64,000 nt of DNA, from positions 1 through 64,000 of the forward strand of contig JAKFWA010000022.1 of assembly GCA_021732995.1 (NCBI GenBank). The letters run 5' to 3'. Under the pieces are notes generated by a model. That model was not told the DNA's origin, ran no database searches, and was given only the letters and a program-made list of their open reading frames with translations. Source of the DNA: Planctomycetaceae bacterium (lineage in GTDB: Bacteria > Planctomycetota > Planctomycetia > Planctomycetales > Planctomycetaceae). The translations under genes and the position numbers were made by a program. Shown here one piece after another: positions 15,956 through 64,000 of this stretch. Numbering within the stretch: position 1 is the stretch's first letter; every line of letters begins with the position of its first letter.

Positions 15956-16499
15956 GTGTCGGATCCTGTTGCGAAATGTTTGGTTGGTTTGAGGCTCAGC
16001 TTGGCAGGCTGTTGTTTGTTGCCTCGTGTGTTGGATGTGAGGGTGTAAAGCAGGGTGAGTGCCAGACCGCGAAACCGCGTTCAAGAATCTTTGCAGTCGC
16101 GTTATTGAGTCGACGCAAACGACTACAGCTAAAGGCATTAGAGATTTCAGGATCGCCGCACGCATTTCGGGCGACTGTAAAGCGACCGTCGAACGCGTGG
16201 CGGATCGGCAACGTGACAAATCAGAAGCGAGCCTGCGTTGCCGAGCGGAAGTGCTGGTGGCTCAATCACTTCCGCCAGTGTTGCTATCAATGATGCCGCT
16301 GAGGCCACTGAGCAACGTCACCTCGTAGGAAGTAAGTGCGCGACGCAGTTTGGGAGGGCGAGGCTCCTGCCGAGCCGTTTCATGTTGCTAACGCGGCTCG
16401 GCAGGAGCCTCGCCCTCCCAGGCATTCTTCGCGACCCCGTCAAGCCGCATTACCCGCCGCGACGGCACCCGGACGCGCGGTTACTTCCCGGGACTCGCC
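15956..16499. other. 544-bp gap without a supported gene
   Basis: No reading frame here has a convincing start or protein-like composition. The gap contains the pilin gene upstream region and the perfect 27-bp palindrome at 16351-16420. The rest shows nothing I can name. Confidence 0.55.
16351..16420. repeat. Perfect 27-bp inverted repeat (WEGEAPAEP-type element)
   Basis: Arms 16351-16377 and 16394-16420 are exact reverse complements with a 16-nt loop. The left arm read forward encodes the peptide WEGEAPAEP, a hallmark of a widespread intergenic palindromic repeat in planctomycetes and some other bacteria. No transposase is present; it is a REP/MITE-like element. A strong cruciform or mRNA hairpin is expected. 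Confidence 0.92.
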
Positions 16500-19234: not shown

Positions 19235-22200
19235 CTACTTGCGTGGCTTCGCACCGACGAACGATTGAGTCCGCAGCATGGCACTTTGATTCGGTACGTC
19301 GCCCGCTGGCGCGCCGGCTGCCAGCATCAGGAAGTCAGGGCTCTTGATATCCGTCGAGGCGAAGCTGATTGCGCCCTCGCGACGCTTGGGGTCTGTAATC
19401 AGTTCAAACTCGCCCTTGGCTTCAGCGGCGGGCTCCTTGCGATCCGACCAGTTCTCGGAAAGACCTTTCTCGCTACCTTTGTTGAAGAGATAGGTTTCCA
19501 GCGCGGATTGCTGCAGGTCTTTCTCGACCAGCATTTCGGGACCGGCAACTTGCGCGAATAGATTGCGGTGAAAGACCAGATTGTTGGACTTCGTCGACGG
19601 CATGCCTGCAAATCGAATTCCAGCGCGGCTTTGACCGAAGAACGTGTTGTTGGCGAGCAGGACATACTCCCAGTCGCCGCCGGCCGTGAAGCTGACGCCG
19701 ACCTCGCCGTGATCAAAGATATTCTCGCGAAACTGCATCTGCTTGGCGCTGGCTGTGAATTCGACGCCCGCTTTGTGTGGTCCGATAAAGCGACAGTTTC
19801 TCACCGCGACAAACCGCGTGCTGGTCACGCTCTTGTTGAACTGGATGCCGACGGCGGAGGTTCCACTGCCGTGGAAATCGACCTCCTGAATGTAAGTGTC
19901 ATCGCCTTGGGCAGCGAAGCCCTCTGCGCGAATGCCGGCCTTCGTGTAGCCGCTAAGAGACAACTTGGTCCACACACCGGTCGAGTAGCCGACGATCTCC
20001 ATGGCGGCGTCTTTGCCGGGAGCATCGAGGTCGAAATTCTCGAGCCGGAAGTTCTCGACACTGATCAGCCGCACGCACAGGCCATCTTCGCGCGGCTTGA
20101 TTTTCGCGCGACCTCCGCGAGCGATGATGTGAATACCGCTGGGATAGTTTTGCCCGCCGTGGTTATCAAGCCCGAAGGCCTCGTAGGTCTGCCCGGCGGT
20201 AACCGCGAGCGTTACGTTCGGACGACCGACTTTTGCTCCGCCTGCATACTTGTTGCGCTCTTTGTTCAAGTACGACAGTGCTTGCCAGATTTCCTTGAAG
20301 TGGCCGTCAGGACCAACATCAATGACTTTGCTGTTGATGGGCTTGGAAGGTTCAGGCGCCGGCTTTGGTTTGGGTTCGCGAGCTGGCGATCCCGCAACGG
20401 ACGTTTGGGCCGGCTCCTTCTTCTTGTCTTTCTTATCGTTGGTCGCAGTCGTCGGGGGTTTCTTGGATGGTTTCTTGTCGTCCCCGGCGTTCATCACCAT
20501 GAAACCGCCGACACCTGCGATGAGTAGCACCGCTGCGAGCACTCCAATCAACTTGACCGGGGCTCGCTTGGCTAGTGATGGAGTCGGCGGAGCCACTACG
20601 GGCGCAGAACCGACCGGATAGGCGACCTGTGCCACTGGTGGCGCGCCGGGAATCGAAGCAACCGGAACCGCTTGAGCGACTACCGGTGCTGCAACTGCCG
20701 GCGGCGCGGCAGGAGATTCGCTTGCCCAACTGAAGGGCGAAGAATCTTCCTCAGTGTCCTCTGTAGTCGAGAAGAACGGTGGCGGCGACTCAACGACGGC
20801 CGGGGTTGCAGGCATGGCCACAGCGATCGGAGTGACGGACACAGGGGCAGGGGTGGGAACTGCCGGCACCGGCAGGGCTGGAACGGGTTGAGCAGCGATC
20901 GGTTGCGCAATGGTCGGCTGAGCCGTCGTGGGCATTATGGTTCCACTGACGACCGGTGCTGCCGCGACTGGCATCGCCACTGCGGGCCTCGGAACTGGCG
21001 TTGCTGCGACGGGCATTGCCGCCAGGGGTGCGGCAACAGCAACGGGAGCCACTGCGACCGCTACTGCGGGGGCCGCGACGGGTGTTGCTGGTACTATTTG
21101 AGGCACGGCTGAAGCTGGGACCGCTATAGCTGGTCTAGCGACAATCGGAGCTACGGGGGCGGGGGCGGCAACCGGCGCCGGAACAACAGTGGCTGCGACT
21201 GCCGGGAATGATGGAACCGGGGAACTCGGCAGTGCGACTGGCTGAGCGGCGCGTGGGGCTGGAACTGGTGGCACAGCCACAGGTGGCTGTTGTTCGATCT
21301 GGCGAGCATCAGCCATCGGCATCGGAGCCACAGGCGCGGGTGCCGCAAAGCTTGACGTGTCGCTCATGTTCTCCGGGGCACCAGGTGCCGCATCCGGGAA
21401 GTCAAAGACTCCTGAAGAACTCTCTGCTGCGGTGTCGTTGGCGCTCTCGCTCGGAAGCTCCCACGGCATCGCTTCGGCGGGGGCGGGAGACGGAGGTGGT
21501 GCCACAGCCGCGACTGGTTGCGGAGCTGGTATCACTGGCGTCGGCGGCACGACTACGGCTGGGGCCGCTTGAGGTGGTGGCGCTAGTGGTGCGGCGGCGG
21601 ATTGCTGCTGTAACTGCTGAAAGAAGTCACCGAAGCCGCTGTCCTCTGTGGATGGTTCCACAGAAGCGAAGGGCAGGGCTGCGACTTCGACCGGCTGTTG
21701 TTCTGGAACTGTGGGAATCGGTTCTGGTGGCGGTGCGGAAAATTCTGGTGCTGGCGTTGCTCGTGCCAATGAAGTGCCCGAGCCTGAGCCCATCAGATTG
21801 CCCCACTGCTGACGAAACTCGGGGCTCGCGTTGCTATGCAGCCAGCCGATCAACGCATCAGCGACCTGGGCCATCGACTGATATCGCTCATCCGGCTTCT
21901 TGGCCATCATCAGTTTGACGATCGCCAGGAAATTGGCGGGTACGTCGGGGCGGTCCTCCGCAATAGACGGCGGTTCTTTCGTCTGATGCCACATCAGACG
22001 TTGAGCCAGCGTGCCGTCCTTGAACGGCGGATGCCCCGTCAGGCAGTAATAGATCGTGCAGCCGAGGCTGTAGATGTCCGCCCGCAGGTCCACCAGATGA
22101 CTGTCGAGAGCTTGCTCAGGCGAAAGATAATCCGCTGTGCCCAGCACTTTCTCGTCGTAGGTTACCGTGAGCGGGTTTTCCTCGGCGCGTTCTGCAAACA

Positions 22201-25532: not shown

Positions 25533-25941
25533 CCCTTCAACTCGTTCCCAAGCTCCACCTGTGAGTGATGTCTTTCAATGGCACTCGAGAAGCAGTTGTG
25601 CCGACCAGAGAAGTGTGACAAACGAATGGGGACAAACGAATTTCAGAGAATCAACTGGCTCAGTCTGCATCGCATCTTCATTCGTCTGTCCCCATTCGTT
25701 TGATATTCGTCTTGGGAGTGCACGCTCGGAAACTTCGCTGCGTACTCAGCTGATGAATGACACCGTTCAAACGCACTCGGGAAGCAGAGCTTCCATTAAC
25801 CCGTCCCCAAGCAGATCCTGGGAACGAGTGGATTTGCCTCTGTTTAGACACTGGCCGAAGGTGGCGGTGTTGATTCGCAGATGACTAACAATACGCCGTC
25901 GCCTTTGGCTTGCCGTTAAACAATTGGTGGGCTGCTCGCGT
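25533..25941. other. 409-bp gap carrying an interspersed repeat
   Basis: No gene is supported in this gap between the DMT and UbiB genes. It holds the best-preserved CAAACGAAT direct/inverted repeat (25619-25702). Confidence 0.6.
25619..25702. repeat. CAAACGAAT direct-plus-inverted repeat, copy A
   Basis: The left arm 25619-25641 carries CAAACGAAT twice, spaced by GGGGA. The right arm 25680-25702 is its reverse complement with one mismatch. The same unit occurs at 36920-37013 and, decayed, at 8991-9071. The 38-nt centre differs between copies. There is no internal gene. Confidence 0.9.
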
Positions 25942-36919: not shown

Positions 36920-37013
36920 CAAACGAATGGGGACAAACGAATTTCAGAGGATCAAACCAATCAGAAAGACTGCGGCTGAGCCTTGCCCGCATTCGCCTGT
37001 CCCCATGCGTTTG
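36920..37013. repeat. CAAACGAAT direct-plus-inverted repeat, copy B
   Basis: The left arm 36920-36942 is identical to that of copy A (25619-25641). The right arm 36991-37013 is its reverse complement with two or three changes. It starts at the base after the fhcA stop codon and ends 24 nt before the SecA-like start codon, so it fills the intergenic gap. Confidence 0.9.
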
Positions 37014-55349: not shown

Positions 55350-58300
55350 ATGCGTATGGCTTGGAGACGTGGCGTCGTTGCGCTGCTGGTGTGCCTGTTG
55401 AGTGTCATTGTTTCGCAGCCGGCGCTGGCTCAGAAATGTCTGGCTCCGGACTTCAAGGTTGAGCTGCTCTACAGCGTGCCGGAGGTCGAGCATCCCTCCG
55501 TTGTGACGTGCGATGACGATGGCAACCTGTTCGTCGGCGAAGATCCGATGGACATGCGCGGGCCGACTTCCAAGGAGTTCGACCGCGTCCTGTTCATTCA
55601 GTTTGGCCCGGACGGCAAGCCGATCAAGAAGACCGTTTTCTGCGACAAGCTAGCGGCAGTGTTCGGACTGATCTGGCACGATGGCGCGTTGTACGTCATG
55701 CACGCGCCGCACTACTCGGTCTTCCGAGATACCGATGGCGACGGCGTGGCCGACGAACGTAAGGATCTGGCAACCGGCTTTGGCCCGCCCGCAGGCGTGT
55801 ATGGCTTTAATGATCACATCGTGACGGGTACTCGGCTGGGGCTGGATGGTCGCGTGTATGTGAGTGTCGGGGATAAGGGTGTGCCGAAGGCGGTGGGCTC
55901 GGATGGTTCGGCGATCACGCTCGAAGGCGGCGGCGTCATCCGCATGAAGCTGGATGGTTCGGAGCTGGAGATCGTTTCGTCCGGCACGCGCAATCATCTC
56001 GACGTCGCGATGGACTCGCTGGATAACATTTTTAGTTACGACAATACCGACGATGGCCTGGGCTGGTGGACTCGCTTCACTCACCACGTGCCGACCGGTT
56101 ACTACGGCTATCCCTACGATTATCACCCGCACCCCGAACGTCACCTGCCGCGTATCACCGAGCATGGTGGAGGCTCGCCCGTTGGTGCCGCGTGCTATCG
56201 CGAAGCGGCGTGGCCTGCGACCTATGTCGACAGCCCATTCTTCTGCGAATGGGGTAAGCAGAAGGTGCAACGCTTCAAGCTCAAGAAAAAGGGCGCCAGC
56301 TTCGAAGCCGAGCTAGAAGATTTTTTGGTACCAGATGGCAGTGGTGAGCCCTTCCGTCCGCTCGACCTGACCTTCAGTCCGGACGGCAAGCATATGTATC
56401 TGGCCGACTGGAACTACAACGGCTGGGTGAACCCGGCCGTGAAGGGGCGGCTGTATCGCATCACCTACACCGGCAGTGAACCGGCGGTGAAAGATGAGCC
56501 TGCCCGCGCACCGAAGGACGCGAGTGTTGATCAACTCATCGCATCGCTGGGGCACCCATCGCATGCAGAACGAATGCGAGCCCAGTTCGCTCTGACAAAG
56601 AAACCAGCGGCTGATGTACTGCCCAAGCTTTCCGCTCTGACGGGTTCGAAAGACGCCGCGCCGTCGGCCAAGGTCCATGCGATCTGGTCGTTGTACGCCG
56701 TGGCGATGTCTGGAGCGAATCCGGAAGAACAACGGCAGCGCCTCTTTGGTCCTGCACTCGCTTGGGAAGCGGCCTTCAGCGACGCTGATCCATCCGTGCG
56801 AGCTCAAGCGGCCCGAGCGATCGGCCTGCATCGCGATGAGCATGCCAAGCTGGCCGAACTCTTGTTGCAAGATCCCGACGGGACGGTCCGCCTACAGGCC
56901 GCGGTTGCTCTGGGAAGACATGGCGATCCCCTGCCCGCCGCGAAGTGGAAGAGCACTGATGCGGGCCAGGCGGGAGTGATTCTGCCGCGAGAATCGGACA
57001 CGCAACTCGTGGACTTGAAGTCTGGCTGTTCGAGTTGTTCGGTAGATCTGGCCAAAGCACTCCGCGATCCCGATGACTACGTACGGCATGTCGTCATTCA
57101 AGCTCTGCGTGTTGTCAACAACTGGAGCGAGATTGGCGAAGCTCTGAAATCTGATAACCCGCGCGTGCGCACGGGCGCCATCATCGCGCTGACGGGTGTC
57201 TATGACGAGAACGCGATTCAAGCGCTGCAGGATGTCGCCTTGAATGGTCCGGCGACGGAAGACCGTGTGCGAGCCATCGAAGGCCTGACCGAGGTTCATC
57301 GGCGAGCGGCTCCGTACGTCAAAGGTTGGTGGGGAACACAGCCCGCGCGCGGCAAGCCTGCTCGACCGAAGACTCAGGATTGGTCCGGAACATCCAAGGT
57401 GGCGGCAGCGTTGCGAGCGGTCTTGGAAGGCAACGGACCGCATCAAGCGAAGTTGGCTGTGATCAAGGCTTGGCGAATTGTCGATGATCCCGCAGCACTC
57501 ATGATGCTCCGCAACATGGCGCACTCGCACTACAAGAGCGACGGCCCGATTGAAGCGATCATCACTCTGGCAGCATTGAAAGACAAAGAATCCGTGTCGC
57601 TGTTTGCGAAGATCGCGAGTGACGAAAAGTGCTGGGAAGAGCTGCGTCGCGAAGCCGTTAAGGGCATCACGGCGATTGGTTCGCCGGAAGCGGTGAAGCA
57701 ATTGGTTGATCTGATTTCTGCTGACAAGACCTCACCGGAACTGGTCGGCCTGACACTCGAAGCGCTGGGCAAGATCAAGAACGCAGACTCTGCTTCTGTT
57801 GTCGAGAAGCGTTTGACGGATGGCAACGCCGCTGTGCGTATCAAGGCCGCCGAAGCGTTCGGAGCGATTCGTGGCGCGGATGGCGCGGCTCAGATTGCCG
57901 AGTTGCTGAAGGATTCTGATATTGGCGTGAAGAAGGCGGCGCTGGGGGTGTTGGCCAAGAACTCTGGTGAAGCACCGAAGCCCGGCCGTCGCAACAAGGG
58001 GGAGAACAACGACCAGCAGGCGAGGCGTGCTGCATACGTGCCCGCCGTGATCGCTGCAGCAAACGATCCTGCGGTGAAGTTCGAAGCTCAGATGGCACTC
58101 GCTCAGATCATCGATCGGCGGGCTTTGGCTCTGTATCTCGATGGTCTTACAAGTCCCAATCAGGATCTGCGTAATGCGAGCCTCAACGCGCTGGTCACGC
58201 TGCGCAGTTCGATCAGCGACGACATCTTGAAACTGCACGAGTTGAATGAACTGCCCGCGAAGGCTCGCGGCCCGCTGCAGCAGGTGTTCTCGGCACCGGC

Positions 58301-59267
58301 ACCGGTCCTGAAGTGGCAAGTCCTGGGATCGTTCCCGAAGGAACCCAAGGACAAGCTGCCTGAGCTGGATCGCGCGGCGGCTCCGGACCTCAACCAGTTG
58401 CATCATGTCGGTGAACGAGCCTTGAAGTGGAAGTCGGTGGAGCTGACCGATAAGGACGGTCGACTTGATCCAGGTCGGCACGTCGATGGTTCGCGCGATG
58501 GCGTGTGGGTGTTCGCCTACACCGCCATTGAAGCCGAGACCGCCGGCCCGCGCAGCTTTGTGGTGGGCAGTGATGATCAGCTCATCGTGCATGTGAACGG
58601 CAAGAAAGTTTACGAGTTCATGGCCAATCGCGGTTGGGACAAAGCTCAGGGGCAGTTCAGCGCCGAACTGCAGGCCGGCACCAATCACATCTGGATCCAA
58701 TGCGGTAACGACGGTGGCCCCTGGGATTGTTCGCTCGCCATGAGTTCCCGCGATCCCAAGTTCGCATTCCTGTTTGAGAACGCCACTCCGATGCTGGATA
58801 TTTCAGCGTTCCGCGATTTCGCGATGAAGAACGCGGGTGACGCCCTCAACGGCCAAAAGATCTTTGAGAACCCCAAAGGCGTCGGCTGTGTGAAATGTCA
58901 TGCGGTGAGTGGCGTCGGCGGCAAAGTCGGCCCCGATCTGGTGGGCATCGGAGCCCGCTATCCGAAGGATGAATTGATCCGTTCCATCCTCGAACCCAGC
59001 GCCCGCATCGCCAACGGCTTCGATACCGCGATCATCGAAACCAAAGATGGTCGAGTCATCACCGGAGTCCTGAAGCTCGACAGCCCCGAAGCCGTTGAAC
59101 TGATGACCAACGAAGGCAAGACCATCCGCATTCCCGCCGACGAGATCGAAGACAAAGCCCGCAGCCCGGTCTCCACCATGCCCAACGGCATCAAAGACGG
59201 CCTCACCCTGCAGGATTTCGCTGATATCGTCGCCTACCTGGAAAGCCTGAAGCAGGCAGCGAAGTGA
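55350..59267 (+). CDS. PVC-type propeller/HEAT-repeat cytochrome c protein
   Basis: A 1305-residue secreted protein. A signal peptide (GVVALLVCLLSVIVSQPALAQ) leads a membrane-bound-dehydrogenase-like beta-propeller (~30-370; PDFKVELLYSVPEVEHPS, GNLFVGEDPMDMRGP, LTFSPDGKHMYLADWNYNGWVNP). Next come alpha-helical HEAT-like repeats (~390-900; several with DxxxxVRxxA). Then comes a ligand-binding-like beta domain (~1020-1150; DGVWVFAYTAIEAE, VVGSDDQLIVHVNGKKVYEF). Last is a heme domain with CVKCH at residues 1180-1184 and the tail motif KDGRVITGVLK. This architecture is typical of planctomycetes and is thought to oxidise sugars or alcohols in the periplasm. The ATG at 55350 opens the signal peptide. 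Confidence 0.92.
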   Translation: MRMAWRRGVVALLVCLLSVIVSQPALAQKCLAPDFKVELLYSVPEVEHPSVVTCDDDGNLFVGEDPMDMRGPTSKEFDRVLFIQFGPDGKPIKKTVFCDKLAAVFGLIWHDGALYVMHAPHYSVFRDTDGDGVADERKDLATGFGPPAGVYGFNDHIVTGTRLGLDGRVYVSVGDKGVPKAVGSDGSAITLEGGGVIRMKLDGSELEIVSSGTRNHLDVAMDSLDNIFSYDNTDDGLGWWTRFTHHVPTGYYGYPYDYHPHPERHLPRITEHGGGSPVGAACYREAAWPATYVDSPFFCEWGKQKVQRFKLKKKGASFEAELEDFLVPDGSGEPFRPLDLTFSPDGKHMYLADWNYNGWVNPAVKGRLYRITYTGSEPAVKDEPARAPKDASVDQLIASLGHPSHAERMRAQFALTKKPAADVLPKLSALTGSKDAAPSAKVHAIWSLYAVAMSGANPEEQRQRLFGPALAWEAAFSDADPSVRAQAARAIGLHRDEHAKLAELLLQDPDGTVRLQAAVALGRHGDPLPAAKWKSTDAGQAGVILPRESDTQLVDLKSGCSSCSVDLAKALRDPDDYVRHVVIQALRVVNNWSEIGEALKSDNPRVRTGAIIALTGVYDENAIQALQDVALNGPATEDRVRAIEGLTEVHRRAAPYVKGWWGTQPARGKPARPKTQDWSGTSKVAAALRAVLEGNGPHQAKLAVIKAWRIVDDPAALMMLRNMAHSHYKSDGPIEAIITLAALKDKESVSLFAKIASDEKCWEELRREAVKGITAIGSPEAVKQLVDLISADKTSPELVGLTLEALGKIKNADSASVVEKRLTDGNAAVRIKAAEAFGAIRGADGAAQIAELLKDSDIGVKKAALGVLAKNSGEAPKPGRRNKGENNDQQARRAAYVPAVIAAANDPAVKFEAQMALAQIIDRRALALYLDGLTSPNQDLRNASLNALVTLRSSISDDILKLHELNELPAKARGPLQQVFSAPAPVLKWQVLGSFPKEPKDKLPELDRAAAPDLNQLHHVGERALKWKSVELTDKDGRLDPGRHVDGSRDGVWVFAYTAIEAETAGPRSFVVGSDDQLIVHVNGKKVYEFMANRGWDKAQGQFSAELQAGTNHIWIQCGNDGGPWDCSLAMSSRDPKFAFLFENATPMLDISAFRDFAMKNAGDALNGQKIFENPKGVGCVKCHAVSGVGGKVGPDLVGIGARYPKDELIRSILEPSARIANGFDTAIIETKDGRVITGVLKLDSPEAVELMTNEGKTIRIPADEIEDKARSPVSTMPNGIKDGLTLQDFADIVAYLESLKQAAK

Positions 59268-59333
59268 GGCTGCGATTATGGCAGGGAGCGCCCATTTCTT
59301 GCTGTGGCATGCCCCCACTGCAGCCGAAACTCC

Positions 59334-59362
59334 TTGCTCTGTATTGAGCCGTTGCATATAAG
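59334..59362 (+). promoter_or_regulatory. Sigma-70-like promoter of the candidate small RNA
   Basis: TTGCTC at 59334-59339, a 17-nt spacer and TATAAG at 59357-59362 are a good fit to the housekeeping promoter consensus. They sit in the gap after the cytochrome gene. A transcript would start near 59369, just before a long run of hairpins, and no plus-strand gene follows within 1.3 kb. Confidence 0.6.
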
Positions 59363-59368
59363 TAGAAA

Positions 59369-59579
59369 AGAGGTCGTGAGCGACTGCCGGGGTCCCATAC
59401 TAAGGGACTTGCCGGTGTCCACTCACGAGAGTCAATAGTTGTGCCCCGTTACGAATGGGGCCTTACCTTGATCCCGTTCGCTCTAGAACTTCGAACGGGG
59501 GACTTCGGGACTATCGACACAATCCTCTTCGTTGAATTGAATGCCGCCGACGCTTAGCCGCGTTGGCGGCTTTCTTTTT
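59369..59579 (+). ncRNA. Candidate structured small RNA, about 205-210 nt
   Basis: Promoter, fold and terminator are all visible. The 5' end AAGAGG (59368-59373) pairs with CCTCTT (59524-59529), closing a multibranch structure; TCG 59374-59376 can pair with CGA 59515-59517. Inside are three hairpins. First is a long one at 59375-59427 (CGTGAG/CTCACG, GAC/GTC, CCGG/CCGG, GTCCC/GGGAC). The second is GCCCC/GGGGC at 59443-59461. The third is CCCGTTCG/CGAACGGG at 59473-59499. A terminator follows at 59543-59579. No reading frame of note lies inside. I find no motifs of tmRNA, RNase P RNA or 4.5S RNA. The three-hairpin form differs from the single rod of classic 6S RNA. The minus-strand neighbour makes a riboswitch unlikely. 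Confidence 0.65.
59543..59579 (+). terminator. Rho-independent terminator of the small RNA
   Basis: The stem 59543-59553 with 59560-59570 (11 bp, one G-T pair, loop TTAGCC) is followed by TTTCTTTTT. The T-tract overlaps the stop codon of the minus-strand gene by two bases. The tract is on the plus strand only, so it serves the plus-strand RNA. Confidence 0.88.
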
Positions 59580-60153
59580 AACTCCTTGATGCAGGCGCCT
59601 CTTTGGGCGGTGTTAACAGCGATCCAATAGGGTCTCCAGCAAGTGGTCCCTCTATTCTTAAAGAGTTTCCCGGTAACTTCGCGCCGATTTCCATCGCTCG
59701 ACTAACAAACGCAGTCCACCATTCGCCGGGCACCTTTGCGGGGTGGTTTTGATGCAACTCCCAGCAAACAAGAATGGGGTTGATCAGAAGGACATGCGCA
59801 ATTTTCCTGCTCCCTGACGACTTAACCGCGATGAATCCCAGTTGCTCAAGTGACTGAATGCGTTCCGCCCACGTGCGCACTGCACGACCGCCTGAGTATC
59901 CCGAGCTATATGCGGCGGCTTCTTCGTCGTTGATGGAAACAATGCCCTCGTCAAAACAACGCACCCATAAGTCTAGGTAGACAACACTTGGGTCACCCTT
60001 CTTCGACAACAGCTTTATCAAGTGCATAACCAGAGGCAGAAGTCGAGGGATGCTCGCAAATCCGTCATTGGTTCTTCTATCCCAAATCTTCGCCGCCGAC
60101 CCCGGCCAAAGCGTATCTCTGAGTTCTCTTCGCCGCTCTGTTGCTGTCGCCAT
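59578..60153 (-). CDS. Hypothetical protein with winged-helix-like segment
   Basis: A 191-residue protein of uncertain family. The N-terminus is basic (ATATERRRELRDTLWPGSAAKIWDRRTNDGFASIPRLL). The middle GGRAVRTWAERIQSLEQLGFIAVKSSGSRKIAHVLLINP reads like a recognition helix followed by a beta wing, as in replication initiators and transcription regulators. The C-terminal ~40 residues are Pro/Ser-rich. Lower GC than the core genes and the neighbouring AT-rich gap suggest acquired DNA. No integrase or plasmid gene is nearby. I cannot name it. Confidence 0.6.
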   Translation of the reverse strand: MATATERRRELRDTLWPGSAAKIWDRRTNDGFASIPRLLPLVMHLIKLLSKKGDPSVVYLDLWVRCFDEGIVSINDEEAAAYSSGYSGGRAVRTWAERIQSLEQLGFIAVKSSGSRKIAHVLLINPILVCWELHQNHPAKVPGEWWTAFVSRAMEIGAKLPGNSLRIEGPLAGDPIGSLLTPPKEAPASRS

Positions 60154-60942
60154 TGCCAGCCTCTCCTCTCGACCTGAACCTTAACGAGCTTCGGCACTCT
60201 GACAATGGCGAAATGGTCTTGGTTCGCGTTTTTGATGAGATCAGGTCTGGCGGCACTGGCGATCATCGCGAGTGGGAATGTAGGCTAGTCTGATCAGTAA
60301 TCCAAGCATTTTTTGTCTGATCGATGAGGCCTTGGTGTGATGACTGCCTTTTTCTTCGCGGTTTCGACGCGTTTTTTGTACTTGAATGTGCTTTCATTCA
60401 ACTTTTCGTTGTCTGTTTGTGCGAATAATCGCCTATTTTTATAGTTTTTTCCAGTATTTATTTGCTTTTCCGTGCTCCCGGTGATCCCGTAATCGCTAGT
60501 TAGCGCAGCTTCTGTGATCCAGTGATCCATGTTTGTGGCTTTGACTTTTTATTTTGAGCTGAGAATCGCGGCGTCTGCAGGCTGCAGAATGATTCGAGCC
60601 TAGGTATTCAGAGGTGGCACGGATCCAGACGTAAATTGATCGTTCTGAATTCGTGCTAAGAGGACCTCAACAGCCCTATGCCGTGGCTTGGAGCGAAGTG
60701 GGGAGTCGAAGAGTTGGGCATGCTTGCCCGTGGTCGGGCTTGCAGTAACTGCCTGCCGGGAGAGCTGATGGGCCAGCTCGTGGGGAAGCCTGTTTGAGCT
60801 GCGATCTGTACGGCGTGGCGCAGTCACGAGAGTCAGTTCGGCTGTGCCCGCTGGGCATTCCGATAGCCCGAATATGCGTGACTAGTACCGCCGCGTGTTG
60901 AGCGGCACTGGACTCTTCGACCATCAGCGGTAGTGTTGCCTC
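60154..60942. other. 789-bp gap, partly AT-rich, no supported gene
   Basis: The segment 60290-60560 is clearly more AT-rich than the rest of the window, with T-runs and several GGATCAC/GATC words near 60480-60530. A 78-codon minus-strand frame (60294-60530) is not supported by composition. The segment 60560-60942 returns to normal GC and holds nothing I can identify. The whole gap is probably remnant accessory DNA upstream of the winged-helix-like gene. Confidence 0.5.
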
Positions 60943-61487
60943 ATGAGCCCTCTTCGATATTCCATCAACCTCACGTTGTACGGGGCTGTGATCCTCGGGC
61001 AATTCCTGCAGATGAAGAATTGCATCGTCAGGCGGTTGAGAACCTCAACCGGGCGGATGCTCTGCTGTTTGGGCGGGTGACTTATGAAATGATGGAGTCA
61101 GCGTTTCGGTCGGCGGCGTGGGAAGCACCGCTCGATTGGAAGCACTCCTTCGGCCGGACGATCGATGCGGCCAGGAAGTACGTCGTGTCGAGCACCTTGA
61201 ACCAGGTCGAGTGGAACGCGGAACTCGTGCGCGGGGATCTGGCGAAGACCGTTCAACAGCTCAAGCAGGAGCCGGGTAAGGGAGTGTTCCAGAGAGGCGT
61301 GAAGCTCCCGCTGGCGTTGGCGGAACTGGGATTGATCGGCGAGTACGAGCTCATCGTGCAGCCCACGCTTGCGGGTCACGGCCCCACGTTGTTCGCGGGG
61401 CTCTCGAAGCCTGTGGAGTTGAAGCTTGTGGATCGGCTGCAGTTCAGGTCAGGGGCAGTAGCTTTGCGGTATGAGCCGAGACGGTAG
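60943..61487 (+). pseudogene. RibD/DHFR-like reductase gene, frameshifted
   Basis: The frame from the ATG at 60943 begins MSPLRYSINLTLYG, the standard start of the RibD C-terminal/DHFR-like family. The rest (CDPRAIPADEELHRQAVENLNRADALLFGRVTYEMMESAF ... LPLALAELGLIGEYELIVQPTLAGHGPTLFAG) continues in another frame. One base appears lost near 60985, where related proteins have two Cys codons after the Gly. The C-terminal part is intact to 61487. Either the gene is recently inactivated or this is a sequencing error. The family includes uncharacterised NADPH-dependent reductases. A terminator-like hairpin lies 100 bp downstream. Confidence 0.75.
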
Positions 61488-63942: not shown

Positions 63943-64000
63943 GCCAGTGTAGCTCAATTGGCAGAGCACCGGTTTTGTAAACCGGGGGTTGCGGGTTCAA
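63943..64000 (+). tRNA. tRNA-Thr (anticodon TGT), truncated by the window end
   Basis: The acceptor 5' strand GCCAGTG (63943-63949), the D-arm GCTC...GAGC, the anticodon stem CCGGT/ACCGG and the loop TTTGTAA give anticodon TGT (63976-63978), reading ACA Thr. The T-arm begins GCGGGTTCAA, where the window stops. The 3' part of the T-arm and the acceptor 3' strand lie outside the window. Confidence 0.93.

Follow-up and report, generated by a model that had tools for sequence, protein, structure and literature searches.

A candidate stand-alone small RNA gene between a cytochrome gene and a plasmid-type gene in a planctomycete genome

Results

Architecture of the intergenic gap

The gap between the stop codon of a cytochrome gene and a convergent gene of 191 codons may contain a stand-alone intergenic small RNA (sRNA) gene on the plus strand, particular to the species or its closest kin. 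We propose this tentatively, as a candidate. The window (the whole stretch of DNA that was analysed, 64,000 nt) represents bases 1-64000 of contig C8 in a 9.39-Mb draft genome (G000). An earlier note had described here a new small RNA that was either a conserved planctomycete regulator or part of an accessory patch. The RNA stands as a candidate belonging to no known family; of the two origins offered, the first was not supported and the second was half right, and the fold does not settle the strand. The parts of the locus are as follows.

55350-59267, plus strand: upstream gene, DUF7133/HEAT/cytochrome c protein of 1305 aa (open reading frame and domain match)
59334-59362, plus strand: promoter-like site TTGCTC-17-TATAAG (sequence reading; 8/12 consensus positions)
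59368-59373, plus strand: 5' half of the closing stem, AAGAGG, with the predicted transcript start about here (pair probabilities 0.59-1.0)
59374-59428, plus strand: long hairpin arm with loop ATACTAA (pair probabilities 0.8-1.0)
59431-59518, plus strand: second domain with the helix GTC/GAC and ATAGTT/GACTAT around an ambiguous interior of either one branched hairpin or two small ones (fold prediction)
59524-59529, plus strand: 3' half of the closing stem, CCTCTT (sequence reading, pair probabilities)
59366-59531, minus strand: reverse complement of the core, the alternative RNA strand, with a better fold than the plus strand (z -4.46 for the stretch 59368-59532)
59543-59580, plus strand: intrinsic terminator, 11-bp stem (59543-59570) and tail TTTCTTTTT (terminator search and reading)
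59578-60153, minus strand: convergent gene, 191 aa, plasmid-type, no function assigned (relatives in plasmid records and contigs)

Only short open reading frames (at most 44 aa) were found on the plus strand of the gap (59201-59640), which together with the intergenic position argues for an sRNA gene. A 184-aa open reading frame, antisense to the cytochrome gene, starts at 59357 on the minus strand. The T tail of the terminator reaches into the convergent gene's stop codon.

The promoter described in the earlier note is in place, with the -35 element TTGCTC at 59334-59339, a spacer of 17 nt and the -10 element TATAAG at 59357-59362. It is weak: it agrees with the sigma-70-like consensus at 8 of 12 positions, and at only three of six in the -35 element, which counts against the sRNA gene. 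Because the promoter search used a cut-off of nine matching positions, the site is absent from the automatic list. The window contains 19 promoter matches of equal quality (13 on the plus and six on the minus strand), that is 0.15 per kb of strand, so that a 300-nt gap would carry one on a given strand in 4-5% of cases. The terminator was likewise found as described: nine of its 11 stem pairs are G-C, and the T-rich tail follows. The surrounding 4 kb contain four terminator-like sites, no more than shuffled sequence (mean 4.1), a point against the sRNA gene; the candidate's terminator, with 11 pairs, is the best of the four.

An intrinsic terminator is thus present at the 3' end of the candidate, though it may serve the cytochrome gene instead. 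The stretch would then be the 3' untranslated region of that gene, the terminator ending the mRNA, the promoter arising by chance, and the repeats being incidental or structuring the mRNA end. Judged by eye, a similar terminator stands 30 nt past the stop codon of an ortholog of the cytochrome gene in genome G040 (59% identity), which suggests that the terminator may be the cytochrome gene's own. The low promoter score agrees with such a 3' end, as does the lack of core conservation in the relatives' genomes searched. However, the distance of 275 nt from the stop codon to the terminator stem is long, and the intervening sequence folds better than shuffled sequence. We consider a 3' untranslated region rather unlikely.

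The arrangement of the parts was compared with chance expectation. A promoter-like site followed 120-300 nt downstream by a strong terminator occurred once in 128 kb of strand, at the candidate. The same order appeared 0.025 times per shuffled window (40 shuffles); promoter-like sites were more numerous in the shuffles than in the real window (18.7 vs 10), and terminators were fewer (1.5 vs 4). Random placement of the real numbers of promoter-like sites and terminators (7 and 3 on the plus, 3 and 1 on the minus strand) gave about 0.07 expected cases by an arithmetic estimate. The earlier note had called the chance of finding all elements in order low. The arrangement is indeed unusual, yet not decisive, the grammar having been defined post hoc, after the site was seen. 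In favour of an sRNA gene, the promoter-like site would place the start at the closing stem, about 205 nt ahead of the strong terminator, in an order that is unique in the window.

Folding of the two strands

The closing stem AAGAGG/CCTCTT, already noticed in the first reading of the sequence, is present and encloses a folded core of about 165 nt. The three well-paired hairpins said to lie within it were recovered only in part. The long arm is well defined on the plus strand. In the second domain the base is firm (59431-59440 pairs with 59509-59518), whereas the interior is ambiguous, with pair probabilities of about 0.3-0.6 and two near-equal forms, only one of which yields three hairpins. 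Folding this domain into two hairpins costs 1 kcal/mol relative to the minimum.

The whole plus-strand transcript (59363-59580) had a predicted folding energy of -97.4 kcal/mol and a z-score of -6.24, and none of 200 shuffles was as good. For the plus-strand core alone the z-score was only -3.36 and one of 200 shuffles did as well; the whole-transcript value therefore owes much to the terminator. Among 2322 overlapping windows of 165 nt (64 kb, both strands), 12 were at or below the plus-strand core in GC-corrected energy, six of them, by position, inside long open reading frames. The scarcity of such windows and both z-scores argue for an sRNA. The reverse complement of the core, however, folded better than the core itself: none of 200 shuffles was as good, and the minimum free energy structure coincided with the centroid. 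The fold thus leaves the strand unsettled, and the stronger fold of the opposite strand counts against a plus-strand sRNA.

Two other repeats were seen elsewhere in the window. A perfect 27-bp inverted repeat (16351-16377 / 16394-16420) has, on either strand, a lower GC-corrected fold energy than any other place in the window. The sequence AACGAATGGGGACA occurs five times with at most one mismatch, against 0.02 expected (25540-25760, 36922-37011, also 8993), and forms inverted pairs twice; the copies resemble REP-type elements or small mobile elements.

Comparison with known RNA families

At the gathering threshold, Rfam 15 gave no match in the whole window save a tRNA at its edge. (This tRNA gene, 63943-64000, is cut by the window edge and was matched by Rfam but not by ARAGORN.) At loose E-values nothing credible was found on either strand of the candidate region; the best match, 19.2 bits to a microRNA family whose cut-off is 93, fell on the terminator. 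The claim that no known RNA family fits therefore held in the Rfam scan, and similarity to 6S RNA was confined to the terminator hairpin.

6S RNA (RF00013) resembles the candidate in length and in having a closing stem; it differs in being a rod with a central bubble, whereas the candidate is branched. Several observations led us to reject identity with 6S RNA. No match to RF00013 appeared even at E-values up to 10. A planctomycete covariance model (R2), built from ten 6S sequences of relatives and run with filters off, matched only the terminator hairpin (9.6 bits), the rest scoring at most 2.9 bits. The predicted structure is a branched multiloop with high pair probabilities in the closing stem and the long arm, and lacks the rod shape of 6S RNA and its central bubble. 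Nor does the candidate lie upstream of rarA, the place of 6S in many relatives: rarA is on contig C50 and the candidate on C8. The gene rarA was near 6S in ten of the 18 6S loci examined (flanks of at most 1.5 kb).

At E <= 1, RF00013 had a match in 21 of 30 relatives, and in 15 of the 30, nine of these in the window's family, the score was over the cut-off. The same search detected no 6S RNA in the candidate's own genome or in G001, the other genome of the genus. R2, also at E <= 1, matched ten of 14 chosen genomes, and in eight of these E was 1e-5 or lower; one of the matched genomes, G002, had supplied a training sequence. No R2 match was obtained in G000, G001, G015 and G018, and the 0.5 kb upstream of rarA in both genus genomes (L053, L054) gave no Rfam match. 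One article reports 6S RNA to be absent in Thermogutta terrifontis, citing Wehner et al., and absent from some Pirellulales (PMC5673643).

The absence of a 6S match from the two genus genomes, together with the 6S-like size and closing stem, raises the thought that a new structured RNA has taken over the 6S role in a genus that lost 6S RNA. We regard this as very improbable: nothing positive links the candidate to RNA polymerase, and searches of the sister species did not detect it.

Homologues in other genomes

BLASTN with the 218-nt stretch detected a single copy in the own genome, where the other matches spanned only 27 and 19 nt. Among 59 genomes including the own, 13 had matches at E <= 0.1, which in the 12 others were stretches of 20-39 nt. 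The best foreign match (E 0.005) was 23 nt inside the terminator region, in G001, and no credible homologue was recognized by BLASTN in the 58 other relatives. As a yardstick, BLASTN reached 38 bits in 14 of 90 directed cross-genus pairs of 6S RNAs from ten genera, so an RNA drifting like 6S could be missed. The plasmid collection gave no BLASTN match to the candidate and the phage collection a single one of 26 nt (E 0.8); exact-pattern scans of viral contigs with two hairpins found none.

Single-sequence covariance models of the plus strand (R1) and the minus strand (R3), both without a benchmark on a known RNA, were used on overlapping samples of family, class and phylum genomes. R1 found only the own genome among 170 family genomes (E <= 0.05) and among 392 phylum genomes. 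In 397 class genomes it found the own genome and nothing else credible, the one further match (L062) having 20.7 bits and E 0.2. Of 170 genomes from the order, R3 at E <= 0.5 detected the own genome and, with nothing credible, L107 (16.3 bits, E 0.22) and L108 (16.7 bits, E 0.26). These three matches and one at 20025-20114 of the window (12.1 bits, E 0.38) were taken as chance; the L108 match overlaps an open reading frame of 719 aa.

A possible second copy at 60821, alike at 14 of 15 nt, was rejected: 75 of 300 mononucleotide shuffles aligned as well, its fold was ordinary, and R1 with filters off scored at most 3.1 bits at 60100-61000.

G001 carries an orthologous cytochrome gene (73% identity). 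It is followed by an open reading frame of 693 aa unlike the 191-aa gene, so synteny is of no help. The stretch 3' of this ortholog contains AAGAG...CTCTT and a similar 3' end; as a homologue it was rejected, though not firmly. It folds with z -2.30 on the minus strand (3/200 shuffles as good) and z -0.58 on the plus strand. The site had been chosen by eye. In global minus-strand alignment with the candidate, 32 of 2000 mononucleotide shuffles and 1.1% of 12,772 real windows did as well, and in local alignment 100 of 2000 shuffles and 4.3% of the real windows. With filters off, R1 had no match within 461-590 and R3 reached 3.1 bits at 470-541; such low scores after the G001 ortholog count against the sRNA gene. 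The CTCTT of G001 lies between the two elements of a promoter-like site. Elsewhere in G001, the best R3 match in a 5.6-kb stretch (L045, 3185-3321; 12.8 bits) overlaps open reading frames and is probably chance, its E-value of 0.0026 for 5.6 kb becoming greater than 1 for the whole genome.

The idea of a conserved planctomycete regulator was thus not borne out: no credible homologue was detected in G001 or in the samples from family, class and phylum by these searches, which are insensitive. With no credible homologue in anything searched there is no covariation to support the fold, and this argues against the sRNA gene. Among the titles listed on planctomycete small RNAs and orphan sRNAs, none names such an RNA.

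The convergent gene and its surroundings

The 191-aa protein has relatives in 164 plasmid records, with 43% identity at the best place; of the 20 records listed, 17 are plasmids of 3.9-5.5 kb. No match to it was obtained in Pfam, PHROGs, PADLOC or NCBIfam, and no significant relative of solved structure (best E 0.37). When 59 genomes were searched for the gene, the own genome was its sole holder. The many plasmid relatives and this restricted occurrence make the gene look acquired. In five of six plasmid regions examined a gene on the same strand stands close behind the relative, coding for a short protein in four cases and for an AbiJ-type abortive-infection protein in one; in the sixth, the gene about 200 nt behind carries the annotation of a TraM recognition domain protein. 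Here, unlike in those five, the gene is on a 189-kb contig and has no partner gene behind it.

Near the gene the G+C content is lower, with a minimum of 45% at 60200-60599. Farther on, just upstream of a RibD_C-domain open reading frame at 60933 (window 60900-61487), the N-terminus-like residues INLTL occur in a different frame, so that this reading frame may be a frameshifted pseudogene.

A search of genome contigs with the single 191-aa protein found no relative; with alignment A2, 24 genome-contig loci and one viral-contig locus were obtained. In none of 31 loci with relatives (six plasmid, 25 contig; flanks of about 3-5 kb or less) was the candidate RNA detected with R1 and R3, all scores being at most 7.3 bits. 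The accessory-patch idea is thus half right: it fits the gene, which is of plasmid type, but found no support for the RNA at these 31 loci.

These scores also bear on a folded RNA of the minus strand, which would be the 3' untranslated end of the 59578-60153 gene or an RNA processed from its transcript. The better fold of the reverse complement, with its coinciding centroid, is consistent with such an RNA, as is its higher number of G-U pairs (6/53 vs 4/58 on the plus strand); moreover, the minus strand passes directly from the plasmid-type gene into the fold, ending in CCTCTTTTCT. Against it stand the low scores at the 31 loci, the terminator tail, which faces the opposite way, and the result that no minus-strand promoter-like site of equal quality occurs within 59200-60000. 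We judge a minus-strand RNA quite improbable.

The inverted repeats, which fold on either strand and adjoin both the plasmid-type gene and the stretch of lower G+C content, could also be a DNA-level palindromic remnant without RNA function, left by a mobile element or plasmid from its origin or from a site of transfer or recombination. The single copy in the genome and the results with the plasmid and phage collections make this improbable. In integron attC sites R'' (RYYYAAC) and R' (GTTRRRY) are about 57-141 nt apart. The candidate shares with them imperfect inverted repeats just past the stop of a foreign-looking gene; attC was rejected because the gene's strand has one RYYYAAC past the stop and no GTTRRRY beyond (59201-60200), which also speaks against a remnant. 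Plasmid antisense copy-number RNAs of the ColE1 RNAI type have several hairpins and their own promoter. The candidate is similar in its several hairpins, with a putative promoter of its own, and in its position next to a plasmid-type gene; it differs in that BLASTN found nothing like it in the plasmid collection.

Discussion

A stand-alone sRNA gene on the plus strand is our preferred, if tentative, reading. Like other intergenic bacterial sRNA genes the candidate has a putative promoter of its own, a fold and an intrinsic terminator, is in the same length range and lies in an intergenic gap; it differs in the weakness of its promoter and in being recognized here from sequence alone, with no known homologue or target. 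The parts, the fold energy and the lack of a family match were computed; transcription, the strand and the stability of the RNA we infer.

RNA polymerase would start near 59369 from the weak sigma-70-like promoter and stop at the terminator (59543-59580). The resulting RNA of about 210 nt would fold into a domain closed by AAGAGG/CCTCTT that has two arms, one long and one branched. Pairing with mRNAs in trans might involve its exposed loops and the single-stranded linker at 59530-59540, a guess drawn from the general behaviour of sRNAs. The terminator might also shield the convergent plasmid-type gene from plus-strand transcription.

Since no credible relative was found, the candidate is at best one more unproven, lineage-specific bacterial sRNA, and no open question is settled by it alone. 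For the PVC group, a table in one review lists eight distinct sRNAs (PMC9029176). If the candidate is transcribed in the planctomycete, it would add one more lineage-specific sRNA to a group in which few have been described.
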